DNA of 64,000 bases, taken from positions 1 through 64,000 of the forward strand of contig JAMFSJ010000035.1 in NCBI GenBank assembly GCA_026225255.1, given 5' to 3'. This document shows, piece after piece, positions 16,503 through 63,596 of the stretch; the first letter of the stretch is position 1; each line of letters begins with the position of its first letter. Source of the DNA: Methylacidimicrobium fagopyrum (GTDB lineage Bacteria; Verrucomicrobiota; Verrucomicrobiia; Limisphaerales; UBA11358). The position numbers and the translations under genes were made by a program. The notes below the pieces were generated by a model. That model made no database searches. It was given only the letters and a program-made list of their open reading frames with translations, and was not told the DNA's origin.

Positions 16503-18989
<2,487 letters not shown>

Positions 18990-24889: not shown

Positions 24890-24960
24890 ATCGCAGATGA
24901 TGCAGATTTTTTATCTGCGGAAATCAGTGTAATCAGCGGGCAAGTTTATTTGATAACTTT

Positions 24961-26826
24961 ATGTGCGGAATCATTGGCTACGTCGGAAAAAAATCGGCTT
25001 CACCCATTCTGCTCGAAGGGTTGCGGCGCTTGGAATATCGCGGTTACGATAGCGCGGGCGTGGCCGTGCTGGATAAAACCCAGCTGGTTGTCCGCAAGAA
25101 ACTCGGCAAAATTGACGAAGGTATCGCGCGACTTTTAAAGAGTGAACCGGTCGTCGGCAGTCTCGGCATCGCGCACACACGTTGGGCGACGCATGGGGTT
25201 CCGGCCGATAAAAATTCGCATCCGCATTTTGACCAATCGGAAAAAATCGCCGTCGTCCATAACGGCGTCATTGAAAATTATGACGCGATCAAACAGAAAT
25301 TGATCCGCGCCGGTCACAAGTTTAAATCCGATACCGACACCGAAGTGCTTGCGCATCTGATCGGCGAACATTATCTGAAATCCAAAAGCGGAAAGCGGAA
25401 AACAGAAAGCGGAAATGAATTGGCCCAAGCCGTTTCCGATGCGTTGCGCGAAGTGATCGGCACTTATGGGCTCGCGGTGATTTGCACGGATTTTCCAGAC
25501 ACCATCATCGGGGCGCGCCGCGGTTCGCCGCTCATTATCGGCCTCGGTAAAGACGAAAATTTTCTCTCCAGCGACGCAAATGCCATTGTCGCACACACGA
25601 AAAAAGTCGTTTATCTGAACGACTACGACGTCGCGACGATCACGCCGGAACGTTTTGACGTCACGAATCTCGGCACGGACACGGCGAACGTCCAGATCAG
25701 CAATCTCGAATTTTCGCAAGAGGATGCGGCGCGCGGCAAACACGCGCACTTCATGCTCAAGGAAATTTACGAGCAGCCGCAAACGGTGGCGAACGCGTTG
25801 CGCGGTCGTCTGGATTTTGAAGGTGCGACCGCGAAGTTCGGCGGTTTGAACATGACGCCCGCCGAGTTGCGTGGCATTGATCGTATCGTCATCGCCGCGA
25901 GCGGAACGAGCTGGCACGCGGCGCTCGTTGGCGAATATCTCATCGAGGAACTCGCGCAACTGCCGGTTGAAGTCGAGTTCGCTCACGAATTTTGCTATCG
26001 CAATTGTCCGCTCGAAAAAAACACCGTGCTGCTCGTCCTCTCACAATCCGGAGAGACGGCCGATACGCTCGCGGCCTTGCGCGAGGCTAAGCGACGCGGT
26101 CATCGCGCGCTCGCCATCATCAATGTCGTCGGCAGCACCATCGCGCGTGAATCCGATGGCGGCATTTATATGCACGCCGGCCCGGAGATCGGCGTCGCTT
26201 CGACGAAAGCCTTTGTTTCCACGCTTTCTATTCTCACCTTGCTCGCGATTCACCTGGGCCGGATGCGCCAACTTTCCGCCAAACGCGCCCTGGAAATTTT
26301 GCACGCGCTCGAAGCGTTGCCAAAACAGATCGAAAAAATTATCGCGCAAAACCACACGATAAAAAAAGTCGCCAAAAAATATGCGCAGGCGGATGATTTC
26401 TTTTTTCTCGGACGCGGCTACACGTTTCCCATCGCGTTGGAAGGCGCGCTGAAGCTGAAGGAAATTTCTTACATCCACGCCGAAGGTTATTCCGCCGCCG
26501 AAATGAAACACGGGCCGATCGCGCTCATTGACGACAAAACGCCGACGGTTTTTCTCGTGCCCCAAGATGCGATGTATGAAAAAACGTTGGCCAATCTCGC
26601 GATGATCCGGGCGCGCAAAGGCCCGATCATCGCGCTCGCGACGGAAGGCGATCAAGGCATCAAGCGCGTGGCGGACGATGTAATCTATCTGCCGAAAACG
26701 CTCGATCTGCTGAACCCGATTCTCGCGACCGTGCCGTTGCAATTATTCGCGTATCACATCGCCCTCGCGCGTGGCTGCGACGTGGATAAGCCGCGTAATC
26801 TGGCGAAGAGCGTGACGGTGGAATGA
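24961..26826 (+). CDS. glmS: Glutamine--fructose-6-phosphate aminotransferase
   Basis: 621 aa. Cys2 (MCGIIGYVG) is the N-terminal nucleophile of the glutaminase domain, with RWATHG near 79-84. Two SIS domains follow (AASGTSWHAAL, SQSGETADTLAALR; LGRGYTFPIALEGALKLKE), and the C-terminus LAKSVTVE is diagnostic. It makes glucosamine-6-phosphate, the entry to peptidoglycan and LPS amino sugars. Residues about 141-152 (KSKSGKRKTESGN) look like an insert from a purine-rich repeat. No glmS ribozyme was recognised upstream; the 71-bp leader contains only a weak GCAGAT/ATCTGC stem. Confidence 0.98.
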   Translation: MCGIIGYVGKKSASPILLEGLRRLEYRGYDSAGVAVLDKTQLVVRKKLGKIDEGIARLLKSEPVVGSLGIAHTRWATHGVPADKNSHPHFDQSEKIAVVHNGVIENYDAIKQKLIRAGHKFKSDTDTEVLAHLIGEHYLKSKSGKRKTESGNELAQAVSDALREVIGTYGLAVICTDFPDTIIGARRGSPLIIGLGKDENFLSSDANAIVAHTKKVVYLNDYDVATITPERFDVTNLGTDTANVQISNLEFSQEDAARGKHAHFMLKEIYEQPQTVANALRGRLDFEGATAKFGGLNMTPAELRGIDRIVIAASGTSWHAALVGEYLIEELAQLPVEVEFAHEFCYRNCPLEKNTVLLVLSQSGETADTLAALREAKRRGHRALAIINVVGSTIARESDGGIYMHAGPEIGVASTKAFVSTLSILTLLAIHLGRMRQLSAKRALEILHALEALPKQIEKIIAQNHTIKKVAKKYAQADDFFFLGRGYTFPIALEGALKLKEISYIHAEGYSAAEMKHGPIALIDDKTPTVFLVPQDAMYEKTLANLAMIRARKGPIIALATEGDQGIKRVADDVIYLPKTLDLLNPILATVPLQLFAYHIALARGCDVDKPRNLAKSVTVE

Positions 26827-31928: not shown

Positions 31929-32786
31929 CTATTCCAGCAAGTCGCCGAGCTGAAGTTTCTTGCGCAATTTGCCGTTGTCAGCGCACATGGCGTAACGATA
32001 TTTGCCGGGCGCGACGGGGGCGAAAAATTCGCCGCCCGCACATTCTACGAGTAGACTACCGGCGGCGATGTCCCACAAATTGATGCGCCGTTCAACGTAG
32101 GCATCAAGACGTCCGCTGGCGACGTAAGCAAGCTCCAGCGCCGCGGAACCGAGGATGCGGATTTTTTTGACGCGGCGCGCGAGGCGGTTCACGTGCGGCA
32201 TACTTTTATCCAAATTTTCTTTCTTCTTGGAAAAACCGATAGCGATGACGGCATCGCGCAATTGCGAGCGGTCGCTGACGCAGATGACTTTGCCGTTCAA
32301 CTTCGCTTTGCCACCGCGAATGGCCGTCCACAATTCATCGGTGAACGGATCGTAAATCACGCCGATCAAAGATTCAAATTGGTGGGAAGAGACTCCGACG
32401 AGCCCTGAATTTTTACGTTTCGCGGTATTTAAGCTAGAACTCGACGGAGTCTCGCTCCACCGTTCCAACGCGATGGAAACGCAGGCGTGCGGAATGCCAA
32501 AAAAATAATTTACCGTGCCGTCAATCGGGTCCACGACCCAGCGATATTCGGCGTTCATGTCGCCGGAAATGCCTTCTTCGCCGAGCAACGGAATTTCCGG
32601 GAAGGCGACCCGCAACGTTTTTTCAATCAGCTTTTGGCAGCGCACATCGAGTTCCAATTTGATGTCATGCGCTTCGCTGGAATTGACGCGTTTAGGCTTG
32701 TGCCAGTTGGTGTGCATGACTTTTCCCGCCGCCCGCGCCGCGTGCACGGCAGCGGCCAAAGCGGCGGCGGTTGAAATAGGTTTCAT
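31929..32786 (-). CDS. Inositol monophosphatase family protein (SuhB-like) with a palindromic insertion
   Basis: 285 aa. Metal-binding motifs: EEGISGD and WVVDPIDGTVNYFFG, then the late LWDIAAGSLLVECAGG. The family dephosphorylates inositol-1-phosphate or related sugar phosphates such as PAP. The usual IALER...GVIYDPF stretch is split by about 28 residues (109-136, Ser/Asn-rich) encoded by an inverted repeat at 32381-32461. Catalytic motifs are untouched, so the enzyme may be active. The C-terminus is basic. A KefB-like antiporter gene lies 6 bp upstream on the same strand. Confidence 0.92.
   Translation of the reverse strand: MKPISTAAALAAAVHAARAAGKVMHTNWHKPKRVNSSEAHDIKLELDVRCQKLIEKTLRVAFPEIPLLGEEGISGDMNAEYRWVVDPIDGTVNYFFGIPHACVSIALERWSETPSSSSLNTAKRKNSGLVGVSSHQFESLIGVIYDPFTDELWTAIRGGKAKLNGKVICVSDRSQLRDAVIAIGFSKKKENLDKSMPHVNRLARRVKKIRILGSAALELAYVASGRLDAYVERRINLWDIAAGSLLVECAGGEFFAPVAPGKYRYAMCADNGKLRKKLQLGDLLE
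32381..32461. repeat. Palindromic element in frame inside the suhB-like gene
   Basis: 22-bp arms at 32381-32402 and 32440-32461 match at 18 positions (core GAGACTCCG.CGAG), around a 37-bp AT-rich centre. It encodes residues 109-136 without a stop. A related single arm lies between genes at 57393-57419. Confidence 0.8.
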
Positions 32787-45329: not shown

Positions 45330-46576
45330 ATGAGTGACGTGAAAACAATTGATTGGTCCGCGCTGCGAAACGATTTTCCGATTCTAGATCAGAAAATCCA
45401 CGGCAAACCGTTGGTTTATTTCGACAACGCCGCCACCTCGCAGAAACCGCGCTCGGTGATCGCGTCGCTGGTGCATTACTACGAGCACGACAACGCGAAT
45501 GTCCACCGCGGCATTCATGAATTAAGCAATCGCTCGACGAATGCGTTTGAAGCCGCCCGCACACGCGTCGCCCAATTCATCAACGCCAAAACGCGGATGA
45601 AATCATTTTCACGCGCGGCACAACCGAAAGCATCAACCTCGTCGCAGCCACGTGGGGTGCGAAAAATCTCAAAGCGGGCGACGTGATTCTGCTCACCGAA
45701 ATGGAGCACCACAGCAATTTGGTGCCGTGGCAATTGCTCGCGCAGAAAACCGGCGCGAAAATTTCTTACATCCCCGTCACCGGCGATGAAGGCTTGCTCG
45801 ATTTGAGCCAACTCGATTCGTTGCTCACGTCGGCGGTAAAATTACTTTCGCTCGTGCACATTTCCAATTCGCTCGGCACGTTGAATCCGGTCGAAGAGCT
45901 GTGCGCCCGTGCGCGCAAGCTCGGCATCGTCACGCTTGTGGACGGCGCGCAAAGTGCCGGCCATTTGCCCGTGGATGTGCAAAGCATCGGCTGCGATTTT
46001 TTTGCATTCTCTGGCCACAAGATTTGCGGGCCAACCGGTATTGGCGTTTTGTGGGGACGCCAGGAAATTCTCGACGCCATGCCCCCGTATCAAGGGGGTG
46101 GCGAAATGATCTTGAGCGTCGGCTACGACAAGACGGAATTCAAACCAGCGCCGCATCGTTTCGAGGCGGGCACGCCGGACATTTCCGGTCCGATCGCGCT
46201 GCACGCCGCTTTGAATTATCTCGATGCCATCGGTCGCGCCAACATCTGGCAGCACGACCAGGAACTGGCACATCATGCCTACGAAAAATTGGCGGCATTG
46301 AAAAACATCCGCTTGTTCGGTCCGAAGTCCGGTTCTGATAAGCGTGCCGGTCTGGTGAGTTTTCTGCTGAAGGACGTCCACGCGCACGATGTCGTGACGC
46401 TGGCGGATCAAGCGGGCGTGGCGTTGCGCGGTGGTCATCACTGCACGCAACCGCTTATGCACAAGCTCGGCGTGGAATCCACCGCCCGCGCCAGTTTCTA
46501 TTTTTATAACACCAAAGCCGAGGTAGATCAGTTCGTGGAAGTGATCAAAGAGATCCAGAAATTTTTTGGGAGCTAA
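45330..46576 (+). pseudogene. sufS: Cysteine desulfurase SufS, interrupted by a single-base frameshift
   Basis: Codons 1-88 from 45330 read a normal SufS N-terminus (LVYFDNAATSQKP; VHRGIHELSNRSTNAFEAARTRV). At 45593 one base is missing. The next frame continues without loss: ADEIIFTRGTTESINL, then to the stop at 46576. That part has the PLP Lys in FSGHKICGPTGIG and the active Cys in RGGHHCTQP. With one G restored the product is 415 aa and full length. SufS supplies sulfur for Fe-S clusters. Either this is a real inactivation or a sequence error; the perfect preservation elsewhere favours error or a very recent change. Confidence 0.9.
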
Positions 46577-46645
46577 ACCGGTTTTGACACGGATTGCTCT
46601 AGAAACCCGCTTGCTGAAATAAATTTTCAAGCTTAGAGTGCCAGC

Positions 46646-46903
46646 GTGAAAACACTTTCCATTCTGGAAGCACAAGGTCAACTCAGCGAACTCATCACCC
46701 AAGTGTATCGGGGCGAAATCGTCGAATTGGCCGATGGCGATCGGCGCGTAACTTTGGCGCCGAGCTGCGGGTTGGATTTGGAAGAAGATAGTCCCGAGCT
46801 AGAATCAGAATTATTGAAGGCGGCCAATGGGCCGTTCACGCCTTATTCGTCGGAAGAAATGCGCGCAGCGTGTGACAAAATTGTTCGTGAAAAACGTGGA
46901 TGA
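46646..46903 (+). CDS. Type II antitoxin, Phd/YefM-like
   Basis: 85 aa with a GTG start. The first 40 residues (SILEAQGQLSELITQVYRGEIVELADGDRRVTLAP) match the DNA-binding fold of prevent-host-death antitoxins. The acidic C-terminal half (LDLEEDSPELESELLKAANGPF) would wrap the toxin. The stop overlaps the toxin start (ATGA). The pair sits between sufS and the rhodanese-like gene, on the same strand. It should be autoregulated by binding its own promoter, but no clear operator was read. Confidence 0.82.
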   Translation: MKTLSILEAQGQLSELITQVYRGEIVELADGDRRVTLAPSCGLDLEEDSPELESELLKAANGPFTPYSSEEMRAACDKIVREKRG

Positions 46904-47232
46904 GTTTGGTGATTCAAAAGACGGGATCGTATCACGCGGATGTCACCAATCAATTCGGCTGGTATTTTGACGAAGCGGGCGAAGAACTGGCGTGGCGATT
47001 TTTCAATGCGGCGGATCAAACGCTTTACAAACTAGCGCGGCAACCTGATTTAGGCCGTCGTCGGAAATTTCGGCATTCGCTTCTGCGCGACCTTTATTCA
47101 TTTCAAGTTGAATGCCCCTTTAGCAAAATTCTGATTTTCTATCGCGTTGCGAAAGACGCTTTGTCAGTTTGGCGATTAATGCACGGTTCGCGCGATTTGT
47201 CGCGCCGATTAGCTAAACCTTTTTATGACTGA
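46900..47232 (+). CDS. RelE/ParE-family toxin
   Basis: 110 aa. The family pattern is visible: YHADVTNQFGWYFDEAGEELAWRFFNAADQTLYKLARQPDLGRRR, then FSKILIFYRVAKDALSVWRLMHGSRDL. ParE proteins poison gyrase while RelE-type proteins cleave mRNA; the LGRRR...R.LMHGSRD form leans to ParE, but this is not decisive. It is translated with its antitoxin and overlaps the next gene by 8 bp, so the downstream rhodanese-like protein is probably read from the same transcript. Confidence 0.85.
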   Translation: MSLVIQKTGSYHADVTNQFGWYFDEAGEELAWRFFNAADQTLYKLARQPDLGRRRKFRHSLLRDLYSFQVECPFSKILIFYRVAKDALSVWRLMHGSRDLSRRLAKPFYD

Positions 47233-47764
47233 ATTGAATTATCAATCTCCCATGAGCGCCGTGTTGGAAAGTTTTCCCGGCGCACAACGGGCGTTGTTCC
47301 GCAAATACCACATCGGCGGCTGCAGCAGTTGCGGATTTCAGCCGACGGAAACGTTGGCGGAAGTTTGTGCGCGCAATGGTAATCTGGACGTGACGGAAGT
47401 GTTGGCGCATATCCAATCGAGTCACGAACTGGACGCGAAAGTTTTAATTTCGCCAAAGGATTTGGCGACACTTTTACAGGCCGACAAAACGGTGAAACTG
47501 GTGGACGTGCGTTCGCGCGAAGAATTTGAGGCGGTGAAAATCGCCGGTTCCGTTTTGCTGTCCCAGGATGTGATGCGCGAACTCATGGCGAGCGGCTCGA
47601 ATACGAATCCGATTGTCGTGATTGATCACGCGGGCAAAAATGGGCTGGACGCGGCGGCGTATTTTATGGGCCACGGTTTGCAGAATGTGCGTTGCCTGCT
47701 CGGCGGACTCGATGCGTGGGCGCAAGAGGTTGAGCCGACGATGCGACGTTACAAACTGGGCTGA
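47225..47764 (+). CDS. Rhodanese-domain protein with N-terminal CxxC domain, lacking the rhodanese Cys
   Basis: 179 aa. The first 65 residues form a DUF1858-like domain with GGCSSCGFQP (CxxC). A rhodanese domain follows (75-175: VKLVDVRSREEFEAVKIAGSVLL; GLQNVRCLLGGLDAW). Where active rhodaneses have Cys at the start of the catalytic loop (C-x-x-G-x-R), this reads IDHAGKNGLDAA, so sulfur transfer at that site is unlikely. It could bind sulfur or metal via the CxxC pair. Its neighbours, sufS and a toxin-antitoxin pair, suggest an Fe-S/sulfur link, which is inference. Confidence 0.82.
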   Translation: MTELNYQSPMSAVLESFPGAQRALFRKYHIGGCSSCGFQPTETLAEVCARNGNLDVTEVLAHIQSSHELDAKVLISPKDLATLLQADKTVKLVDVRSREEFEAVKIAGSVLLSQDVMRELMASGSNTNPIVVIDHAGKNGLDAAAYFMGHGLQNVRCLLGGLDAWAQEVEPTMRRYKLG

Positions 47765-52206: not shown

Positions 52207-52250
52207 TAAAAAAACACGCTGCCGACATCTTGTCGGCAGTTTTTTATTTT
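52207..52250. terminator. Bidirectional Rho-independent terminator
   Basis: Stem CTGCCGACA (52219-52227) and TGTCGGCAG (52231-52239) with a 3-nt loop, flanked by a run of A on the left and T on the right, so it can stop transcripts from both the DUF5069 gene and the convergent PEP-CTERM gene. Confidence 0.9.
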
Positions 52251-56403: not shown

Positions 56404-56419
56404 TATCCTTAATTAAACC

Positions 56420-57385
56420 ATGCCCGCCGCGAACGTCACCATTCACACCAGCCAGTTCCCAGAAAACGTCCGGCGCGATTTGCTGATTTCGCTCCGCACG
56501 CGTCGCCTCAACCACAAGTTTCACTACGACAGTTTCAAGCAAACGCAAAAATGGCTCGCGCTGCACGAAGCGCATTCGCCCGCGCGCACGGATACGGATT
56601 GCCTCGACACTTACGATCTAGCGTTCGTTGAGACAGCTAAAAAAATTGTCGTGCCGAAAATCCATATCCTCAGCCTCGGCTGCGGCGGTGGGCAAAAAGA
56701 TACGCGTTTGTTGGAACTGTTGAAAAAATCCGGCAAGGAAATTTCCTACACGCCGTCGGATGTGAGTGTGGCGATGACGCTGGTTGCCCGTAAAACCGCG
56801 TTGAAAGTGGTATCGGAGAAAGATTGCTTTCCGTTCGTCTGCGACCTCGCCACGACGGACGACTTACCGCCGCTGCTCGCCACTCGCCACCCGTCACTCG
56901 TCACCTTCTTCGGCATGATCCCGAATTTCGAGCCGGACGAAATCCTGCCAAAACTTGCCGCGCTCATTCGTAAAAAAGATTTTCTATTGTTCAGCGCTAA
57001 CCTTGCGCCCGGCGCTGATTATGCCACGGGCATAAAAAAAATCCTCCCGCAATACGACAACGCGTTGACGCATGACTGGCTGCTGACCCTTCTGCTCGAT
57101 CTCGGCCTCGAACGTAACGACGGCAAACTGCGTTTCAGCATCGAGGACGGCGCGATGAAATTGAAACGCGTTATCGCGCGATTCCATTTTTCCCGCAATC
57201 GCGAAATTGTCGTTCACGGCGAAAAATTCAAATTTCAACGCGGGGAATTCCTGCAAGTTTTTTTCTCCTATCGCTACACGCCCGAACGCGTCACAAAAGC
57301 GCTGGCGCGCCATGGCTTGAAAATTCAAGCGCAATGGCTCGCGCAATCCGGCGAAGAAGGTGTTTTCCTCTGCCGCCGCGCCTAA
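56420..57385 (+). CDS. EgtD-like SAM-dependent methyltransferase
   Basis: 321 aa. It shows motif I in IHILSLGCGGGQKDTRLLELL, a PSDVSVAM turn, and FFGMIPNFEPDEILPKLAALIRKKDFLLFSANLAPGADYATG, which follows the layout of histidine N-alpha-methyltransferase EgtD (GS.IGN......F...L......GD.LLLG.D). The C-terminus has the second EgtD subdomain (KRVIARFHFSRNREI; FSYRYTPERVTKAL). No ergothioneine partner gene (EgtB) adjoins, so the substrate may differ. Starts 17 bp after a palindromic repeat. Confidence 0.75.
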   Translation: MPAANVTIHTSQFPENVRRDLLISLRTRRLNHKFHYDSFKQTQKWLALHEAHSPARTDTDCLDTYDLAFVETAKKIVVPKIHILSLGCGGGQKDTRLLELLKKSGKEISYTPSDVSVAMTLVARKTALKVVSEKDCFPFVCDLATTDDLPPLLATRHPSLVTFFGMIPNFEPDEILPKLAALIRKKDFLLFSANLAPGADYATGIKKILPQYDNALTHDWLLTLLLDLGLERNDGKLRFSIEDGAMKLKRVIARFHFSRNREIVVHGEKFKFQRGEFLQVFFSYRYTPERVTKALARHGLKIQAQWLAQSGEEGVFLCRRA

Positions 57386-57392
57386 ACTGGCT

Positions 57393-57419
57393 GGTGGGGC
57401 GAGACTCGGTCGAGCCCTA
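57393..57419. repeat. Single arm of the suhB-insert repeat family
   Basis: The string GGTGGGGCGAGACTCGGTCG resembles the arms at 32381-32461 (GGTGG.GCGAGACTCCGTCG). Only one arm is present, just after the stop of the EgtD-like gene. Confidence 0.55.
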
Positions 57420-63463: not shown

Positions 63464-63596
63464 TAGGGAAAAAGCGGGAAAGCGGGAAACTAAAACGGCA
63501 ACTGACTGTTGACGTTCTGGCTCTCAACCTTCCCCGTTTCCCGCTTTCCCGCTTTCCCGCTTTCCCGCTTTCCCGCTTTCTCGCTTTTTCTTTCCT
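63464..63596. repeat. Purine-rich tandem repeat and its inverted copy
   Basis: 63532-63589 holds about six units of the 8-mer GCTTTCCC (four perfect at 63543-63574, degenerate ends). About 50 bp to the left, 63465-63489 has the complementary phrase AAAGCGGGAAAGCGGG, so the two could pair as a long hairpin. It lies between the OPT gene and the sigma-factor gene. Similar GGAAAGC phrases occur near 10340, 25385 and 34560. Confidence 0.85.

Follow-up and report, generated by a model that had tools for sequence, protein, structure and literature searches.

An 81-nt stretch in the gene for a SuhB-like inositol monophosphatase is very probably a mobile palindrome that is translated and tolerated by the enzyme. 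It is a lineage-specific, GTGG-tagged dimer of two repetitive extragenic palindromic (REP) units placed head-to-head, similar to REP doublets forming hairpins (REPINs) or bacterial interspersed mosaic elements (BIMEs). The gene lies in a 64,000-nt stretch, hereafter the window, from contig JAMFSJ010000035.1 (C66 in our numbering; assembly GCA_026225255.1). The genome holding it, G000, measures 3.9 Mb, is 86% complete, and has uncultured metagenome-assembled genomes (MAGs) of the Limisphaerales or Verrucomicrobia subdivision 3 as its nearest named relatives. All genomes compared are MAGs or were treated as such.

The SuhB gene and its insert

A reading of the window from the sequence only had placed a palindromic repeat in frame inside a SuhB-like phosphatase. 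This is borne out by a complete open reading frame (ORF) of 285 residues that spans the element. The Pfam family Inositol_P matches this ORF at 7e-49 in two stretches broken at the insert, NCBIfam also matches it, and the GEE, DPIDGTVN and WD.AA motifs are invariant across 35 SuhB sequences. Both the fold and the metal-site motifs place the protein in the inositol monophosphatase/SuhB family. The coordinates given in the sequence-only reading for a 22-bp inverted repeat with an AT-rich centre were exact: the arms, 32381-32402 and 32440-32461, are 22 nt each, 82% complementary and separated by 37 nt. Its insert of 28 residues was close in size, the element being 27 codons long and the net gain 26 residues (78 nt), with 33 residues between SIALE and GVIYDPF here versus 7 in most congeners. 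The sister arm that it had seen between genes at 57393 proved to be a full single REP unit. The ligA palindromes mentioned alongside are equally real and lie in frame in LigA (ORF 16503-18986, 828 aa) at 17903-17993 (33-nt arms) and 18686-18754 (22-nt arms).

An AlphaFold2 model built from a 35-row alignment has a mean pLDDT (predicted local distance difference test) of 87. In this model, the insert is the loop joining strands 100-110 and 137-146, and pLDDT is below 50 at residues 120-133. The rest of the protein matches Escherichia coli SuhB (2qfl) with a Z score of 32.8 and a root-mean-square deviation of 2.3 over 250 residues; alignments to the best solved relatives break off at residue 107 and restart at 142. 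As modelled, the insert is a disordered surface loop in a beta-hairpin turn, in line with the surface loop previously envisaged.

SuhB is present in nearly all relatives, and their alignment reveals an empty site. The same residues are not kept as part of the domain: in 27 congeners of the tree set, the stretch between SIAL(Q/E) and GVIYDPF measures exactly 21 nt and encodes a 7-residue, HREQSVV-like turn. Thirteen further congeners carry 42-132 nt at this position; in all 13 the length of the insert is a multiple of three and the ORF is free of stops. These observations bear on the idea that the hairpin is removed from message or protein through translational bypassing, RNA processing or intein-like splicing. 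The predicted RNA fold of the inverted repeat is indeed strong (z = -4.4, with none of 200 shuffles equally good), but bypassing would not need the consistent frame and lack of stops in the congener inserts, and no intron or intein features were seen. Removal is therefore most improbable. The insert is presumably translated and the activity of the enzyme unchanged; WSETPSSSSLNTAK is a predicted candidate tryptic peptide of the translated product.

The repeat family, its distribution and its presumed mover

Both arms of the insert belong to the GAGACTCC family. The arms and dimers counted here were drawn from fetched copies in G000 and its congeners G001, G004 and G024. Alignment of 99 distinct arms gives a 24-nt REP unit with the consensus GGTGGGGCGAGACTCCGTCGAGCC, after which comes a weaker CTAA/TTT. 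Its outer edge lies exactly at GGTGG, the columns beyond it being nearly without information, whereas the inner edge fades across about 7 columns. The terminal tag reads GTGG in 62 arms, GCGG in 11 and GTAG in 5. All 28 close pairs are head-to-head, with spacers of 13-112 nt, and the REP dimer folds strongly (z -9.7). In a pattern search, the core GAGACTCSGTCGAGYYC had 38 matches in the 3.9-Mb genome versus 2 for the reversed control. Counted loosely as a 14-mer inside the window only, the repeat is no commoner than chance predicts (5 matches for 4.1 expected), so the significance of the repeat comes from the genome-wide count. At least 10 copies occur in 7 of the 49 genus genomes searched (G000, G001, G004, G016, G023, G024 and G071); the family is sparse or absent in the others and rare among 387 genomes drawn from the phylum. 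GTAG-type REPs and REPINs are short units, multicopy and lineage-specific, whose ends are defined; they have GTAG or a variant tetranucleotide at one end and form head-to-head dimers with short spacers. The GAGACTCC family shows all of these features, its tag being mainly GTGG.

A search for the core in other coding genes, as advised in the sequence-only reading, found in-frame copies in RecN, MutY, RibD, MurG and others. Altogether, the element is in frame in long ORFs at 12 of about 28 G000 sites inspected. Besides these four and SuhB, the genes are those for AddA, YgfZ, RluE, a HAD-NUDIX fusion, a YoaA/DinG helicase, a squalene/phytoene-synthase-like protein and a BatD-like protein (named on the basis of its ORF alone). 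Family models match both sides of the insert in RecN, MutY, RibD, MurG and others. In G001, 11 of the 19 sites fetched are in frame, namely in PdxJ, IspG, PanC, MiaA, GlmS, ComB, RecN, YgfZ, the YoaA/DinG helicase and, by motif only, a XerC-like recombinase and a sugar-isomerase-like protein. Bare orthologous sites were found for RibD (G004, G005, G013), RecN (G013, G034) and PdxJ (G000, G013). The forward REP unit uses its reading frames non-randomly (WGETPSSP, GRDSVEP and GARLRRA at 12:3:2, p = 0.005) and Arg-rich frames occur in just 3 of 32 arms, by counts made by hand, one per orthologous site, with the arms of one dimer not being independent.

Four results weigh against a mobile REP dimer. 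As DNA, a single REP unit folds weakly (-2.8 kcal/mol), into a GGC/GCC plus GAC/GTC stem with a tandem GA mismatch that does not outdo shuffled sequences. There is no visible target-site duplication. Between G000 and G004, dN/dS (the ratio of nonsynonymous to synonymous substitution rates) is 0.39 in the insert and 0.14 in the rest of SuhB, although the 33 codons compared are too short to use. Finally, none of 24 PF01797 (Y1 transposase) genes in seven genomes scanned, six of them with matches, has a GAGACTCC unit within 1.5 kb; the genomes in this search are 66-97% complete, and a REP-associated tyrosine transposase (RAYT) may act from afar. Likewise, neither of two REP families lies near the 4 free-standing PF01797 genes of G000. 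The mover of the GAGACTCC repeats would be a Y1 transposase of the RAYT type that acts in trans.

One turn filled by different repeats

The sequence-only reading was supported in its interpretation, yet it overlooked the other repeat families at the same site, and its case is one of many. One GAGACTCC dimer at the SuhB turn is common to G000 and its closest relative G004 only, and divergent dimers of the family occupy the turn in G024 and G001. The remaining fillings are a AGTGACAAGTGGCAGGTGACA palindrome in G021, G022 and G030, an array of AAAGTCC heptamers in G013 and G031, an AAAACTC array in G023, and a GTGCTGTGTGCTCC / CATCACGCATCGCGCATCACG palindrome in G035. The three of these types that were tested are all multicopy in their own genomes: the AGTGACAAGTGGCAGGTGACA palindrome has 63, 49 and 26 matches in G021, G030 and G022, the AAAGTCC array has 14 and 13 in G013 and G031, both have none in G000, and the G035 type has about 40 partial matches. 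Judged by their sequences, at least four further repeat types share this turn in sister species.

These fillings can be weighed against the assumption that the insert is ancestral to a SuhB subfamily and functional in it, for instance as a contact loop, with a secondary resemblance to the repeat. Elsewhere in the order, other families do have loops of 14-29 residues at this turn, and G004 retains the same insert. The insert, however, coincides over its full length, boundary included, with a repeat found across the genome; the congener loops are unrelated in sequence and come from other repeat families; and the loop is modelled with low confidence and lacks conserved residues. An ancestral loop is accordingly quite improbable.

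A tree of SuhB built without the loop requires at least 4 changes between long and short loops and at least 10 changes of loop type. With several of its nodes open, the tree gives no firm count of how often the GAGACTCC family itself landed. The fillings might have arisen by replacement, an old repeat being hit by a new one or recombining with it, or by sequence-directed targeting instead of independent landings filtered by selection. This is rather unlikely, concerns the hot spot, and is compatible with a translated REP dimer as the best explanation of the insert. One 9-row clade of the tree has a different repeat type on nearly every branch, and a unit is tandemly duplicated in MiaA of G001, as replacement would predict. 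On the other hand, G035 and G013 both group with rows that have short loops (L101 in the case of G035); both are filled while their near neighbours L101 and L093 keep the bare 21-nt loop, which implies that landing on a bare turn also occurs. Nor do the positions beyond GGTGG show a target consensus.

GlmS, MutY, YgfZ and RibD also harbour different repeats at one loop in orthologues. The loop of the window's glmS gene that contains a heptamer-type repeat is occupied by a GAGACTCC element in G001 and by other repeats in G004, G013 and G024. Separately, YgfZ of G024 (L192) has several distinct in-frame repeat inserts in one protein, including those of the SPLPAKRGEGQGEG / PSPPFHGREGE type.

The translated, tolerated REP dimer probably originated as follows. 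Acting in trans, a Y1 transposase of the RAYT type would have moved it in frame into the SuhB gene of an ancestor common at least to G000 and G004. The insert would then be translated without being removed, appearing as a flexible surface loop of about 27 residues in the beta-hairpin turn, and insertions out of frame or elsewhere would be lost through selection. The element may survive because all six frames of the REP consensus are free of stop codons and nearly any peptide is tolerated at the turn. The same filter would let unrelated repeats build up at the same turn in sister species.

Embedded transposases and known systems

A search with PF01797 for the mover revealed a Y1 transposase domain in frame within PriA of G000, directly before Walker A. 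REP dimers from a different family, CTGCCGACA...TGTCGGCAG, flank it on both sides. In all, six genomes have this PriA site occupied, by two transposase types, each insert having its own flanking repeats. The G030 domain is of the G000 type (65% identical). Those of G024, G021, G031 and G035 represent a second type, with 68-76% identity among three compared and about 35-39% to the first type over about 110 residues. A third Y1 type is in frame in AlaS of G004, G020, G026 and G067; AlaS of G064 has a related transposase sequence, and in G060 another AlaS site is occupied. All 7 embedded inserts scanned lie above the Pfam cut-off for Y1_Tnp. By eye, the embedded transposases retain the HxH motif (MPxHVHxL) and the Tyr-x-x-x-Asn-Pro region. 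Their sequences support, without proving, a RAYT-type mechanism for the smaller inserts. TnpA-REP is usually single-copy and presumed domesticated (PMC8266576), which makes the PriA and AlaS cases notable.

The palindrome found around the PriA-embedded transposase also occurs between genes of the window (CTGCCGACATCTTGTCGGCAG, 52219-52239), where a run of T follows and the arrangement is terminator-like. The window further contains an octamer tandem array, CTTTCCCG, with 7.5 copies at 63529-63587.

Table 1. Location of the SuhB insert, related repeats and embedded transposase domains (window coordinates unless a genome is named)
Feature	Position	Strand	Remarks
SuhB-like inositol monophosphatase family coding sequence	31929..32786	minus	285 aa, uninterrupted; Pfam, NCBIfam and fold match
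Inserted element, 81 nt, head-to-head REP dimer	32381..32461	minus	Read as RWSETPSSS...LVGVSSH; boundary set from 99 arms
REP unit 1 (5' in gene), GGTGGAGCGAGACTCCGTCGAGTT	32438..32461	minus	Sequence and consensus
REP unit 2 (3' in gene, inverted), GGTGGGAAGAGACTCCGACGAGCC	32381..32404	plus	Sequence and consensus
AT-rich spacer, 33 nt, separating both REP units	32405..32437	.	Sequence
Single REP unit, same family as SuhB insert	57393..57416	plus	7 nt past stop codon of gene 56417-57385
Heptamer-type repeat (AAAGCGG-like)	25377..25415	plus	In frame in glmS (24901-26823)
PriA-embedded Y1/RAYT-like transposase, L091	G000:C57, around 46238-47758	minus	
Other PriA-embedded domains	G024 L248; G021 L286; G030 L285; G031 L284; G035 L283		
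AlaS-embedded domains	G004 L245; G020 L288; G026 L289; G067 L290; G064 L291; G060 L292		G060 at other site

A tentative extension, held to be somewhat less probable than its opposite, is that in this genus a fixed set of permissive loops in core genes forms standing sites for the whole REP mobilome, reused by many unrelated families. Complete Y1/RAYT-like transposase genes and their flanking palindromes would then persist in the essential proteins PriA and AlaS as translated inserts, protected from deletion like inteins, without splicing. One and the same gene can have its site empty, filled or differently filled among the sister genomes, which allows direct tests of REP movement, of frame and loop tolerance, and of the activity of embedded transposases. 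Odd loops in metagenome proteins should be regarded with caution, as they may be mobile DNA.

The literature search, which left most subscription journals outside, returned no report of these repeats in the Limisphaerales or of transposases inside PriA or AlaS. In common with the Rickettsia palindromic elements (RPEs), these palindromes sit in frame within housekeeping genes, and relatives have empty sites there. Identity with RPEs was not adopted, the terminal tag being GTGG and not CGTC; the two were set apart without alignment to RPE sequences. According to the survey of GTAG-tagged REPs, RPE-4 and RPE-6 are CGTC-tagged (PMC3733652), and RPE-1 is longer, whereas the present elements are GTGG-tagged dimers in a presumably free-living verrucomicrobium. 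As in REPINs, the repeated unit consists of two inverted REPs and a spacer. Unlike REPINs, which are mostly extragenic and RAYT-linked, about 40% of the sites here are in coding frames, with no linked RAYT found. REP-type palindromes therefore need not be extragenic, and reusable loops of housekeeping proteins have been enlarged by them in one verrucomicrobial lineage.

Intragenic REPs are already known. In the same survey, Opitutus terrae, a member of the same phylum, has more GTAG cases of this kind than any other organism, among them DNA ligase and uvrA (Di Nocera et al., 2013, PMC3733652). That text also gives GTGG as the main tag form of O. terrae GTAG-20 and describes different REPs near the same recB site in two Xanthomonas species. 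The present repeats resemble GTAG-20, as described there, in their GTGG tag and intragenic position. The SuhB insert would therefore represent a new family of a known kind. In contrast to the survey, no adjacent RAYT was found here, unrelated repeats including heptamer arrays share one loop (in SuhB, GlmS, RibD, MutY and YgfZ), and PriA and AlaS hold entire transposase genes in frame. It is these embedded genes, and the systematic way in which unrelated repeats share loops, that go further than the known kind.
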